Positions 16,600-22,493 of a stretch of DNA of 33,714 nucleotides are shown one piece after another. The stretch is from Elusimicrobiota bacterium. Its GTDB lineage: Bacteria > Elusimicrobiota > Elusimicrobia > UBA1565 > UBA9628. A program made the position numbers and the translations under genes. Below the pieces are notes generated by a model. It worked only from the letters and a program-made list of their open reading frames with translations, was not told where the DNA came from and searched no databases. Within the stretch, counting starts at the first letter, position 1; every line of letters begins with the position of its first letter. The DNA lies in assembly GCA_027327915.1 (NCBI GenBank), contig DAHVWT010000015.1, positions 1-33,714 of the forward strand, written 5' to 3'.

Positions 16600-19412
16600 G
16601 CGGGCACGAGGGCCGAGACACAGCGCCCGCAGATGTCCTCATGCCGGGGGTCGCTTCCGACATCCTTCTGGTATCTCCAGCAACGGGCGCATTTGCGGCC
16701 ATCGGCCTTCAAGACCTCGACCTCAAGCGCGCCCGTTCCGCCCAGGAGCCGCGCCTCGGAGACGATGAACATCTCCGCCCAATCGAGCGCTTGTCCCTCG
16801 AGAACCTGGGGCGGAACGTTTCGGAGAACGAGCTTCGCCTCGATCGATGCTCCCAGAACGCCCCTCCCGCGCGCCTCTTCCAACGCCTTATGAGCCGCCG
16901 CGCGCAACTCGAAGATTTTTTCCCACCGCTCCCAAGACGGCGACTCGACGGGCCGACGGGCGCGCGACTTCCCCGCGGCATCCGGCCTTGTCGGCAGGCA
17001 GGCCAGGGCGGCGCGCTCGCCCCACCCCCACTCGCGGGGCTTGTGCCCCCAGGCCTCCTCCGCGGTGAAGGGCAGGATAGGGGAAAGCAGAGGCAGGAGG
17101 GACCGCAGGATCTCGGCAAGCGTCCGCTGCGCAGCGCGCCTTAAAGGATGGTTCCTGGGGTATGTATAGAGCCGGTCCTTGAGCACGTCAAAATAAAACG
17201 CCGAAAGATCGAAGGCGCAGAAATCGACAAGGCGCCGCGCGGCCGGCCGGAAGCCGAAATTCCGGTAGTCCTCCAGGACCCGCTCCTCCAGCTCGCCAAG
17301 CCTCGCGAGCACGTGGTTTTCCATCTCCGGCACGTCCGCCGCGGCCTCTCCGGTCGCGTCCGGAACGTAGTCGTGAAGATTCCCGAGGAGATAGCGCAGC
17401 GTATTGCGGACGCGGCGATAGGCGTCCACGACCCCCTTGAGGAGGTTCGCGGAGAGACGGACATCGTCCGCCCAGTCGGAGAGGGCGACCCACAATCTCA
17501 GGACGTCGGCGCCGTACTGCGAGATGACCTCCTGGGGCGACACGACATTTCCCAGGGACTTGTGCATCGCGCGGCCGTTCTCGTCAAGGACGAAGCCGTG
17601 CGTGAGGACCGCCCGGTAAGGCGCGGCCCCGTTGATCGCGAAGGAGGATAAAAGCGAGCTTTGAAACCAGCCGCGGTGCTGGTCCGAACCCTCGAGGTAA
17701 AGGTCGCAGGGAAGGCCCGCTCCGGCGTCGGCCAGAACCGAGAGCCATGAGACCCCGGAATCGAGCCAGACGTCCAGAATGTCCGTCTCCCGGCGGAAGC
17801 GCCTTTCCCCGCAGGAGGGACAAGCCGCCTCGCGAGGAAGAAAATCCCATTCCTCGGGAGTGACTTCCGCCCCGCGATTGGCGAACCAGAAATCCGAGCC
17901 GTCCCTCGCCACCTTCTCCTCGATGGCCTTAAGAAGATCATCGTCCCCGAGCCATGTTCCGCAAGCCGCGCAATAGAGGATGGGGATCGGCGTTCCCCAG
18001 AGCCGCTGGCGCGAGAGGCACCAATCGGGACGGGAGCCCACCATGCTGGCGATCCTCGATCGGCTCGCGGCCGGGACCCAGTGGACCTTGTCGATCTCGG
18101 CGAGGAGACGCGCGCGAAGATCTTTTTTTTCAACGCTCATGAACCACTGCTGGGAGGCGCGGAAGATGACGGGGTTCTTGCAGCGCCAGCAATGGGGATA
18201 GCTGTGGACGATCTCCTCGCGCGCCAAGAGCAGCCGTTTCGCCTCCAGCGCCCGGATCACCGCCTCGTTACCGTCTCCCAGGACCGCCAGCCCCTCGAAT
18301 TCTCCGGCCTCCGCCGTGAAGCGCCCCGCGGCGTCCACGGGGCAGAGGACGCCAAGATCGTTTTTTTGACCCGTCTCGAAGTCGTCGGCCCCGTGGCCCG
18401 GCGCCGTATGGACGATGCCGCTCCCGTCCTCGGCCGTCACGTAATCGGCGAGCACCGCCGGCGAGTCCCCTCGGAACGGCGCCTCGCAGACGATCTTCAT
18501 GGCGGCGATCTCCCGCCCCTTGTACGTTCCGGAGCCATCTTCGACGAGGCCCAGGAGCTTCATCGCATCCGGTTTTTTAAAGAGCCCTTGGGCCGCCAGA
18601 AAGCGCCTGCCGTCTTTGGTCTTGGCAAAACCATAGTCGAGCTCGGGATGGAACGCCACCGCCTTGTTCGCGGGAAGAGTCCAGGGCGTCGTCGTCCAGA
18701 CGATCACGAAGGCGCCGCGAAGCTTTTCCGGCGCCATGATCGGAAACGCCACGAAAACCGATTGGGATTTTTTCTCCTTGTATTCGACCTCGGCCTCGGC
18801 GAGTGCCGTCTCGCAATGGACGCACCACAAGACGGGCTTCAACCCCCGATAGATAAACCCTTGCCTCAAAAGCAGCCTGAAAGCGCGCAATGTCGCGGAC
18901 TCGTAGTCCCGGGACATCGTCTTATAGGGATTCTCCCAATCACCCAGGACTCCAAGGCGCTTGAAGTCCTCCCTTTGAAGGGAGATCCAGCGCTCGGCGA
19001 AATCGGCGGCCTCATGGCGGAATCGGACGACATCCGCAACGCCGCGGGGGCCCGATTTCTTTTCCTTTAAAAGAGCCGTCTCGATCGGCAAGCCGTGGCA
19101 GTCCCAGCCAGGCCGGTAAGAGACTTTGTGCCCCATCAACGCCCGAGAACGGATCACCATGTCCTTCAAGATTTTGTTAAGGGCGTGGCCGATATGGATC
19201 GCCCCGTTGGCGTAGGGCGGGCCGTCATGGAGGACGAAGGCGGTCTTGCCGTCGCGGCCCTTGGAAAGCTTCTCATAGAGCCCGTCCCACAGCTTGAGCA
19301 TCTCGGGCTCTCGCTTGGGCAGATCTCCTTTTAAAGGAAACGGCGTCTGGGGAAGGTTCAGCGTCGCCGCATAATCCCCCTTCGAAGCCGTGGCTGGGGA
19401 GGCCTTAGCCAT
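16596..19412 (-). CDS. ileS: Isoleucyl-tRNA synthetase
   Basis: HDGPPYANGAIHIGHALNKILKDMVIRSRALMGHKVSYRPGWDCHGLPIE (HIGH motif); WFQSSLL; AMHKSLGN; C-terminal CARCWRY...CGRC zinc site. Confidence 0.97.
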   Translation of the reverse strand: MAKASPATASKGDYAATLNLPQTPFPLKGDLPKREPEMLKLWDGLYEKLSKGRDGKTAFVLHDGPPYANGAIHIGHALNKILKDMVIRSRALMGHKVSYRPGWDCHGLPIETALLKEKKSGPRGVADVVRFRHEAADFAERWISLQREDFKRLGVLGDWENPYKTMSRDYESATLRAFRLLLRQGFIYRGLKPVLWCVHCETALAEAEVEYKEKKSQSVFVAFPIMAPEKLRGAFVIVWTTTPWTLPANKAVAFHPELDYGFAKTKDGRRFLAAQGLFKKPDAMKLLGLVEDGSGTYKGREIAAMKIVCEAPFRGDSPAVLADYVTAEDGSGIVHTAPGHGADDFETGQKNDLGVLCPVDAAGRFTAEAGEFEGLAVLGDGNEAVIRALEAKRLLLAREEIVHSYPHCWRCKNPVIFRASQQWFMSVEKKDLRARLLAEIDKVHWVPAASRSRIASMVGSRPDWCLSRQRLWGTPIPILYCAACGTWLGDDDLLKAIEEKVARDGSDFWFANRGAEVTPEEWDFLPREAACPSCGERRFRRETDILDVWLDSGVSWLSVLADAGAGLPCDLYLEGSDQHRGWFQSSLLSSFAINGAAPYRAVLTHGFVLDENGRAMHKSLGNVVSPQEVISQYGADVLRLWVALSDWADDVRLSANLLKGVVDAYRRVRNTLRYLLGNLHDYVPDATGEAAADVPEMENHVLARLGELEERVLEDYRNFGFRPAARRLVDFCAFDLSAFYFDVLKDRLYTYPRNHPLRRAAQRTLAEILRSLLPLLSPILPFTAEEAWGHKPREWGWGERAALACLPTRPDAAGKSRARRPVESPSWERWEKIFELRAAAHKALEEARGRGVLGASIEAKLVLRNVPPQVLEGQALDWAEMFIVSEARLLGGTGALEVEVLKADGRKCARCWRYQKDVGSDPRHEDICGRCVSALVPA

Positions 19413-20553
19413 TCAGCAATTGCCGGCTGATCACGAGCTGCTGGATCTGGCTTGAGCCTTCGCCGATCTGGTAGAGCTTGGCGTCGCGGAAATACCGCTG
19501 GACGGGAGAATCGAGCGATCCCCCTTCGGGACCGATGAGATCGACGATCTCGGTCGCGGCCCTCATGGCGAGATCGCCGCTGATGAGCTTCGCCATCGAC
19601 GCCTCGCGGGCGAAAGGCTTCCCCGAGTCCAGAAGCCACGCCGCGCGATGCGTCAGCAGTCTCGCGGCGTCGATTTCCGACGCGATCTGCGCCAACGTTT
19701 TCTGCGCGTAGGTGAGCCCCGGCGAGGGGATATCCAGGCCATAGTCCGCGGGACGGGCCTTGACGCGGCGGATCCCCTCCTCGAGGGCGGCCCGGGCGAT
19801 GCCGACGGAGACAGCCGCGATCGCGACCCGTCCGGCATCGAGGACGCGCATGGCGTCCCTGAAGGCGCCGCCCACCTTGCCCACCACGTTTTCGGCCGGA
19901 AGCCGCATCTGGTGCAGATGGAGTTGGGCCGTGTCGGAGGCCCGGATGCCCATTTTCTTTTCGATCTTGCCGACACCGAGGCCGGGAACGCCTTTCTCGG
20001 CCACGAAGGCCGTGAGCTGGGGCTTGCCGTTCCCATCCGTACGCGCGAAGATGACGTAAATCCCGGCCACCGAGCCCTGCGTCGTGAAAGTCTTCGAGCC
20101 GTTGAGAATCCAGCCGCTTCCGTTCGCGGCGGCCCGGGTCTTGATAGAGGCGGCGTCCGAGCCCGCGCCCGGCTCGGTCAAGGCCCAGGCGCCCAGGGCC
20201 TCGCCGGTGGCCAGCCGGGGCAGGTAGCGCCTTTTTTGGTCCTCGTTGCCGTGCAGGAAAAGGTGGTTGGCGCAAAGCCCGTTATGGGACTCGACCGTCA
20301 AGGCGAGCGCCGCATCCGCCCGCCCGAGCTCTTCGAGGACGAGGCAAAGGCTCAAGGCGTCAAGGCCCATGCCGCCGTAATCACGCGGAAGGACGATCCC
20401 GAAGAGCCCCTCTCGAGCAAGCTTCTTCGCGAGATCCCAGGGAAACGCCTCTTTGCGGTCGTTCTCCTGCGCCCGAGGGATAATCTCCCCCTCGCAAAAA
20501 TCCCGGACGCGCTTTTGGAGTTTCAGTCGCTCCGGTCCCAGATCGAATTCCAT
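19405..20553 (-). CDS. Acyl-CoA dehydrogenase
   Basis: ALTEPGAGSDAASIKTRA, GSKTFTTQGSVAGIYVIFART, RYFRDAKLYQIGEGSSQIQQLVISRQLL. Confidence 0.96.
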   Translation of the reverse strand: MEFDLGPERLKLQKRVRDFCEGEIIPRAQENDRKEAFPWDLAKKLAREGLFGIVLPRDYGGMGLDALSLCLVLEELGRADAALALTVESHNGLCANHLFLHGNEDQKRRYLPRLATGEALGAWALTEPGAGSDAASIKTRAAANGSGWILNGSKTFTTQGSVAGIYVIFARTDGNGKPQLTAFVAEKGVPGLGVGKIEKKMGIRASDTAQLHLHQMRLPAENVVGKVGGAFRDAMRVLDAGRVAIAAVSVGIARAALEEGIRRVKARPADYGLDIPSPGLTYAQKTLAQIASEIDAARLLTHRAAWLLDSGKPFAREASMAKLISGDLAMRAATEIVDLIGPEGGSLDSPVQRYFRDAKLYQIGEGSSQIQQLVISRQLLNG

Positions 20554-20617
20554 GGCCGGATCATCTTAGAAAATGAGAAGCGAGGACGCCAGATGATGAT
20601 GGAGGACTTTAAATAGA

Positions 20618-20696
20618 TTGATTACGATCATTGATTAATATCAATTTAATTAATTGACCATGATCATAGGTCTGGGCCGGCCTCCCGCGATATACT
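20618..20696 (+). promoter_or_regulatory. Putative CRP/FNR-family regulated promoter: three dyads plus -10 TATACT
   Basis: TTGAT-TACG-ATCAT (20618-20631), TTGAT-TAAT-ATCAA (20631-20644, perfect FNR-type consensus), TTGAC-CATG-ATCAT (20654-20667), TATACT (20691-20696); no good -35. Confidence 0.5.
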
Positions 20697-20730
20697 AAAG
20701 CCGTCAAGGATGGAATAAGGAGAACAAGCC

Positions 20731-21177
20731 ATGAACAACCAGACGATCAAGACCCCATTTGCCGGCCGCTTGGCCGTCGCCGCGGCGGCCATCACCGTCT
20801 TCTCGGCGGGCGCCTTCGCCGGAGCCTTCGACGAACTCGCCTCCCTGGCCCAGGCGGGTCAGCCTGTCTCCGGCGGCTACTTCGAGGGCTCCAAGGCCTC
20901 CCAGGCCCCGGATGTCATCGTGGCCCCGAAGAATATCCTGACCGTCCGCAAGGGCGTCGACGCCACCCTTCCGATGACGCCCCCGCCAAGCCTCCTGCCC
21001 GGCAAGAAGGCGCAGAACCTCTACAATGCCCCCAACCCGATCCACATCCTTCCCAGCGAGCCGGTGCACATCCTTCCGTACGTGGGCAAGCGCTCCAAGA
21101 AGCAGACCCGCCACATCCTTCCCTGGGGAGTGGCCACCCCGGTTCCCGGCTTCGCCGTCGACGGCAAGAAGCTCTAG
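20731..21177 (+). CDS. Small secreted protein of unknown function with three HILP motifs
   Basis: SD AAGGAG upstream; N-terminal signal peptide (LAVAAAAITVFSAGAFAGAF); C-terminal IHILPSEPVHILPYVG...RHILPWG. Confidence 0.75.
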   Translation: MNNQTIKTPFAGRLAVAAAAITVFSAGAFAGAFDELASLAQAGQPVSGGYFEGSKASQAPDVIVAPKNILTVRKGVDATLPMTPPPSLLPGKKAQNLYNAPNPIHILPSEPVHILPYVGKRSKKQTRHILPWGVATPVPGFAVDGKKL

Positions 21178-21275
21178 CTTAACCGCTGATACGGGGCCAA
21201 GACCACCGCTACGGCAACGGACCGCTTTCGCCGTCGGCTGCCCGCGCTTCTCGTTTTTGCTTTAATGACTCCGTT

Positions 21276-22493
21276 ATGAAACCCGCCCCCTCCAAGAAGC
21301 TGACCTCCCTGCCCCCCTATCTTTTCGTCCGCCTCAACGCCCTGAAGGCCAAGGCGAAGGCAGACGGGCTTGACATCATCGACCTTGGCCAGGGGAGCCC
21401 CGACCTCCCGACGGCTCCGCATATCGTGGAGGCCTTGCGTCTGGCCGCCGGCGACGCCCAAACGCACCGTTATCCGCCGTCAGACGGCCTGCCGGAGCTG
21501 CGCGAGGCGATCGCATCCTGGTACCGCAGGCGCTTCGACGTAGCCCTGAACCCGAACACGGAAGTCCTCCCCCTCATCGGTTCTAAAGAAGGGATCGCCC
21601 ATCTCTTGATGGCCCTTCTTGAGCCCGGGCAAGGGGTCCTGGTCCCAAGCCCCTGCTACCCCGTCCACTACAACGGCGTCGTGCTCGCCGGAGGCAAGGC
21701 GAATATCATGCCCCTCAAGGAGGAGCGCGGCTTCCTGCCGGACCTTAAAGCCGTCCCCTCTCCCGTCGCGAGGCGAAGCAAGATTCTCATCCTCAATTAC
21801 CCCAACAACCCGACGGGGGCCGTCGTCGAAGACATCGCATTCCTCAAGGAAGCCCTGGACTTCTCCAAAAAATACGGATGCCTCGTGGTCTACGACAACG
21901 CCTATTCGGAGCTCTCCTTCGACGGCTACGTCGCGCCCTCCATCCTTCAGCTCCCGGGCTCCAAGGAGCGCGCGATCGAGTTTCACTCCTTCTCCAAGAC
22001 TTTCTCGATGGCGGGCTGGCGCGTGGGCTTCGCCGTGGGGAACGCCGAGGCCGTCGGCCATCTCGCCAAGTTCAAGGGCTTTCTCGACTACGGCATCCCC
22101 GCTTTCATCCAAAAGGCCGCCGCCGCGGCTTTAAACGGCCCCGAGGACTGCGTCCGCGAGGCGCGGCGGGTCTACCAGAGCCGGCGCGACGTCCTCGTTT
22201 CGGCCCTGGGCGAGGCAGGATGGCCGGTCAAGCCGCCCAAGGCGGCCATGTACGTCTGGGGACGGCTTCCCGACGCCGCGAGAAAAATGGGCTCCCTCGA
22301 GTTTTCCGAACGCCTCATCCTGGAAAAGGGCGTCGTCATTTCCCCCGGCTCCGGATTCGGCCCGCTCGGGGAAGGATATGCCCGCTTTTCCCTCGTCGCG
22401 CCCGAGGAGAGGCTGCGCGAGGCGGCAAGCCGGATCAAGTCCTTCATCGCCTCGTTGTCGCCGTCGAAGGGCCGGGCTCTCGCCCACTCTTAG
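21276..22493 (+). CDS. PLP-dependent class I/II aminotransferase (AlaC / LL-DAP aminotransferase-like)
   Basis: IDLGQGSPDLPTAPHI, YPPSDGLPELREAIASWY, LNYPNNPTGAV, DNAYSELSFDGY, SFSKTFSMAGWRVGFAVGN (PLP Lys). Confidence 0.94.
   Translation: MKPAPSKKLTSLPPYLFVRLNALKAKAKADGLDIIDLGQGSPDLPTAPHIVEALRLAAGDAQTHRYPPSDGLPELREAIASWYRRRFDVALNPNTEVLPLIGSKEGIAHLLMALLEPGQGVLVPSPCYPVHYNGVVLAGGKANIMPLKEERGFLPDLKAVPSPVARRSKILILNYPNNPTGAVVEDIAFLKEALDFSKKYGCLVVYDNAYSELSFDGYVAPSILQLPGSKERAIEFHSFSKTFSMAGWRVGFAVGNAEAVGHLAKFKGFLDYGIPAFIQKAAAAALNGPEDCVREARRVYQSRRDVLVSALGEAGWPVKPPKAAMYVWGRLPDAARKMGSLEFSERLILEKGVVISPGSGFGPLGEGYARFSLVAPEERLREAASRIKSFIASLSPSKGRALAHS

Follow-up and report, generated by a model that had tools for sequence, protein, structure and literature searches.

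The region between the HILP gene and its divergent neighbour in this Elusimicrobiota genome is, as judged from sequence comparison, a real and conserved activator-dependent promoter that is part of a small, lineage-specific regulon. We consider it probable that it serves the HILP gene as a class II promoter, whose dyads D2 and D3 would be bound by Crp/Fnr dimers, most likely of the regulator L016 acting as an iron-sulphur or thiol switch. The window, by which we mean the whole stretch of DNA analysed (33,714 nucleotides), is contig C66 of a 1.99-Mb draft genome that is 91% complete. A 177-bp intergenic region separates the acyl-CoA dehydrogenase gene (minus strand) from the HILP gene (plus strand) and holds all three dyads; the features concerned are listed below.

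19405..20553, minus strand: divergent acyl-CoA dehydrogenase gene, judged not to be a target of the promoter element, with no class II -10 on its side
20618..20631, plus strand: D1, distal dyad TTGAT-TACG-ATCAT (TTGATTACGATCAT), taken from the sequence; one base is common with D2
20631..20644, plus strand: D2, middle dyad TTGAT-TAAT-ATCAA (TTGATTAATATCAA), exact FNR/Anr/Dnr consensus; centre at about -64.5/-65.5
20654..20667, plus strand: D3, proximal dyad TTGAC-CATG-ATCAT (TTGACCATGATCAT); centre at 20660.5, about -41.5/-42.5, at a fixed 23 bp from D2
20691..20696, plus strand: -10 hexamer TATACT, 23 nt after D3, with no -35; 6/6 bases kept in three species
20702..20703, plus strand: predicted transcription start, placed by the -10 and by related promoters in which 34-35 nt separate D3 from the ATG
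20717..20722, plus strand: ribosome-binding site AAGGAG, taken from the sequence; kept in three species
20731..21177, plus strand: HILP gene, 148 aa, with a signal-peptide-like N-terminus and three HILP repeats

The original prediction described three FNR-type dyads and a TATACT without a -35 hexamer; all of these are present exactly at the positions listed, and a sigma-70 scan of the promoter region returned 0 sites. When compared with the FNR/Dnr-type pattern TTGA(T/C)-N4-(A/G)TCAA, D2 is an exact match and D1 and D3 deviate by an end base or a T/C change. The GC content over 20610-20668 is 20%, as against 64.6% for the window, and D3 could accordingly be read as an ordinary promoter element, its TTGAC resembling a -35 hexamer, with the palindromes arising by chance in an AT-rich island. 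We give this reading a negligible probability: TTGAC lies about 31-32 bp from the -10 instead of 16-18 bp, the sigma-70 scan is empty, and the following comparative data already contradict it.

Orthologues of HILP were found only in two other genomes of its genus, with 82% and 48% amino-acid identity, and in both sister species, as in the window, D1, D2, D3 and TATACT lie at -113, -100, -77 and -40 from the ATG. Across the three species the half-sites are kept (27 of 29 bases invariant) while the N4 spacers diverge (2 of 12), and the difference between the half-sites and the other intergenic bases (68 of 130 invariant) gives a Fisher p of 1.9e-5. The right half-sites of D1 and D3 have changed from ATCAT to GTCAT in the most distant species, where the dyads are still intact. 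From the base composition, one would expect 2.6e-6 copies of TTGAYN4RTCAA-N9-TTGAYN4RTCAT in the 1.99-Mb genome, against three perfect composites observed and none in the reversed control; the dyads are far beyond chance. The FNR-type assignment of the dyads is supported, and the concern that the dyads might lack conservation is answered by their retention in the sister species and across the class.

The two other composites of the genome are intergenic dyads sharing the same layout, namely D2, nine bases, D3, 22-23 bases and then TATACT or TACACT. Exactly three perfect composites were counted both in the window's genome and in the sister genome G001, and no credible composite beyond those three was obtained by a genome search at up to three mismatches; a looser class II search, accepting any TANNNT 21-24 nt after a dyad, likewise returned the same three promoters and no others in this genome. 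Among the 13 single-dyad matches listed elsewhere in the genome, 11 lie inside coding ORFs and were rejected, and the remaining two, intergenic and exact, are the other composite promoters themselves. When the search was extended to the class, 42 of 235 genomes proved to carry the D2-N9-D3 composite (at most one mismatch), mainly those of the window's family and order, and the reversed control gave 0 matches; one class-wide search relaxed the D3 end. The composite was absent from all 104 genomes of other Elusimicrobiota classes in a phylum-wide sample. In 86 of the 91 distinct promoters collected, the distance from D3 to the best -10 is 22 or 23 nt; across the collection the proximal right half-site reads NTCAT or NTCCT. 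On this comparative basis, the composite of dyad, 9 bp, dyad, 22-23 bp and -10 is a distinct promoter type. One collected composite (L104) precedes no sensible gene and may be due to chance.

In 35 of the 91 promoters, the distance from D3 to an ATG or GTG is 34-35 nt, which leaves about 6 nt between the -10 and the start codon and suggests leaderless mRNAs with D3 fixed at -41.5/-42.5; transcripts from many of these promoters may therefore be leaderless. Because related promoters place the ATG 34-35 nt after the dyad, the start in the window is predicted at 20702 or 20703, which would put the centre of D3 at -41.5 or -42.5. The proposed start at 20702 is refined in this way, and the class II geometry, i.e. 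a site near -41.5 with no -35, agrees with the conserved dyad-to-(-10) distance, the start itself being a predicted one. In other systems, class II Fnr boxes normally lie at -40.5 to -42.5 (PMC7713065). The originally proposed control of the HILP gene by this region is supported. A D1-like third dyad upstream of D2 (at most 1 mismatch of 8) occurs at 13 bp in 13 and at 14 bp in 18 of the 91 promoters, and at none of the other tested offsets. Promoters of the targets of about 240 aa (L087-L095, L101, L103, L123, L124, L127, L129) share roughly AT(A/G)GGCCTTT(T/C)GGG between D3 and the -10, and in these the ATG is 6 nt after the -10.

The suggestion that the divergent acyl-CoA dehydrogenase is also controlled from this region was not borne out. 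The dyads could form a two-way control region that activates or represses this gene as well, considering that the 177-bp intergenic region is shared, that D2 is palindromic, and that the divergent gene arrangement is preserved in all three species; the minus strand, however, has no -10 at class II distance. The architecture is directional and is found elsewhere before unrelated genes without a divergent partner: D1 is also present in promoters that have no divergent neighbour, among them the ones immediately 3' of the regulator gene, and the other composites precede single secreted-protein genes. We regard two-way control as distinctly improbable and hold to a promoter directed at the HILP gene.

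The prediction presupposed a CRP/FNR-family regulator in the genome, and two proteins with a Crp HTH domain are indeed encoded, L016 and L017. L016 (235 aa, contig C137), which is not adjacent here to HILP or to either of the other two targets, belongs to the CRP/FNR superfamily: PF00027 and PF13545 were both detected above cut-off, its fold matches CRP/FNR structures, and the predicted fold (mean pLDDT 89) aligns with holo-FNR of Aliivibrio fischeri along its whole length (230-238 columns). Its family is represented by one main copy in most of the order's genomes, and in a named collection nearly all of the closest homologues are from Elusimicrobia MAGs. An N-terminal C-x2-C-x5-C is invariant in a 32-sequence alignment and in 47 of 47 Elusimicrobiota homologues; a fourth cysteine, in the beta-roll, is invariant in 47 of 47 Elusimicrobiota homologues of a public genome collection. 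This fourth cysteine is C63 (C104 in the long reading), which corresponds by alignment offset roughly to FNR residue 72 and not to the position of FNR C122. A cAMP-type CRP was set aside as a reading of the regulator because the family has FNR-like N-terminal cysteines. The FNR-like recognition helix reads E-T-x-x-R in all 47 homologues; its E and R are invariant, and the usual FNR serine is V, I or T, mostly V.

The neighbourhood of the regulator gene connects this family with the promoter type. In 28 of 48 regulator loci, a composite with at most three mismatches starts no more than 600 bp 3' of the regulator gene, and a Cx5C peptide gene comes next. The distribution of mismatches at these loci is two-peaked, at 0-3 or at 6 and more, and the latter equals the reversed control, which was never better than 6 mismatches. 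The regulator is present in 33 of 38 genomes with the motif and in 18 of 193 others (Fisher p = 8e-22, uncorrected for phylogeny). Four of the five motif genomes without a full-length regulator match are incomplete drafts (62-91%), and 18 genomes have the regulator but lack a perfect motif. Genomes of family f15 (G178-G232 and others) have divergent regulator homologues, at about 200 bits, without the composite, which may mean that the family has further targets or uses a different site spacing. A search for autoregulation of the Crp/Fnr regulators through such dyads gave nothing. In the window's genus, the regulator gene still adjoins an upp-like gene, as identified by eye, and the peptide gene between them is gone. 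Among 11 regulator loci examined, no recurrent peptide-modification enzymes were found near the regulator, and the recurrent neighbours look by eye like upp and deoA. Three loci (L156, L159, L163) have two or three composites in tandem, at about +72, +500 and +850 relative to the regulator stop; every composite has a Cx5C-repeat peptide gene of its own, an arrangement that looks like duplication of promoter plus gene.

The other regulator, L017 (contig C83), could read these sites instead, as a nitric-oxide regulator of the DNR/NnrR type: its gene is flanked on one side by a ScdA/DUF2249/TusA fusion, suggestive of nitrosative stress, and on the other by a many-helix membrane protein, its recognition helix IETAIR is likewise of the E..xR type, and sequence does not distinguish a Dnr box from an Anr box (PMC5398030). 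The regulator found beside this promoter type in the 28 loci, however, is of the L016 family, not L017, and no dyad was found near L017; we therefore think L017 fairly unlikely as the reader of these sites. The L017 locus itself (138-3195 of contig C83), with the DUF2249/ScdA_N/TusA fusion and a 487-aa membrane protein without a Pfam or NCBIfam match, is possibly a nitric-oxide response cluster.

With L016 preferred as the activator because of the neighbourhood of its gene to the composite in relatives, we infer binding, activation and signal as follows. In class II promoters, a Crp/Fnr dimer that sits at -41.5 in the absence of a -35 touches several surfaces of RNA polymerase, and a dimer bound to D3 at -41.5/-42.5 would take the place of the -35 element. 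A second dimer would sit on D2, 23 bp upstream, presumably by cooperative binding, and the two side-by-side dimers would recruit sigma-70 RNA polymerase. D1 may be an alternative register for binding; it overlaps D2, and therefore the two are probably not filled simultaneously. The activator would most likely be L016, a four-cysteine FNR-like protein, and its regulon in this genome would comprise HILP, a double-DUF333 protein and a 53-aa peptide. The FNR-like cysteines suggest that L016 is probably an iron-sulphur or thiol sensor; the cue for such a switch would be oxygen, nitric oxide or redox state, and oxygen or redox is a plausible signal.

Gene regulation in Elusimicrobiota is, to our knowledge, almost unexplored, and our literature searches found no such regulon for this phylum. 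Two activator dimers, one of them at the class II position, are also used in CRP class III promoters, where the second site is usually further upstream, at -93 or so, whereas here it is adjacent, at about -65. FNR class II promoters (E. coli FNR; Sphingopyxis FnrN, PMC7713065) are similar in their TTGAT/C-N4-A/GTCAA dyads, centred at -40.5 to -42.5 with no -35, and in a regulator having an N-terminal CxxCx5C and the CRP/FNR fold. The present system differs from them in its second dyad at a fixed 23 bp, sometimes with a third at 36-37 bp, in having secreted repeat proteins as its only targets, in the many genes that look leaderless, and in the different location of the fourth cysteine. Regulators of the Dnr/NnrR/FixK type (PMC5398030) share an indistinguishable consensus and class II positions, but lack the N-terminal cysteines and typically target genes for denitrification or microaerobic respiration. 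The parts are thus of known kinds, and the combination, tandem geometry, target set and lineage are new as far as the searched literature tells. A natural family of class II promoters with a fixed second dimer offers material for studying the cooperation of adjacent Crp/Fnr dimers.

All three composites of this genome precede secreted-protein genes, and the regulon holds secreted proteins only, with no respiratory genes. Besides HILP, for which no Pfam or NCBIfam family and no plasmid match was found, the targets are a secreted protein of 191 aa that has two DUF333 domains and is kept in the two sister genomes, and a 53-aa secreted peptide with the C-terminal sequence PPPCAINHTCH. A hydrophobic N-terminus was found in 89 of the 91 downstream ORFs versus 74 of 362 control ORFs, a contrast somewhat inflated because the choice of start codon favoured such an N-terminus. 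About four groups can be distinguished among the downstream ORFs: micro-proteins with QFRPCVWPNKC-like repeats (n = 37); 150-250-aa proteins with a C(G)VLD...PC core (n = 24, plus four of nine unclassified ORFs assigned by eye); Pro/Leu-rich proteins with ILPGGRG or HILP motifs (n = 18, plus three by eye); and DUF333 proteins (n = 3). A Pfam search of group representatives gave no family except DUF333.

Taking these groups together with the regulator, we tentatively propose, with somewhat less than even confidence, a lineage-specific four-cysteine FNR-like sensor that is widespread in one class of Elusimicrobiota and lacks a general respiratory regulon. It would be devoted to secreted repeat peptides with Cys or His (PCVWPNxC, HILP and relatives), acting through a promoter on which two dimers are obligatorily adjacent and from which the transcripts are often leaderless. 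If true, such a dedicated sensor would constitute a self-contained system leading from signal to secreted peptide. Now that there is a concrete regulator, with a precise promoter code and only a few targets, the role of the secreted repeat proteins becomes testable.

The stretch from HILP to the aminotransferase-like gene that follows it (21177-21276) showed no terminator-like hairpin, so that read-through is possible. The micro-proteins L076, L078, L079, L081-L085 and L148-L189 are secreted proteins with Cx5C repeats like RPCVWPNKC or TTCQWPHVC, and the two representatives tested belong to no Pfam family. The HILP repeats in the window resemble a cysteine-to-histidine version (xHILPxx) of these Cx5C repeats.
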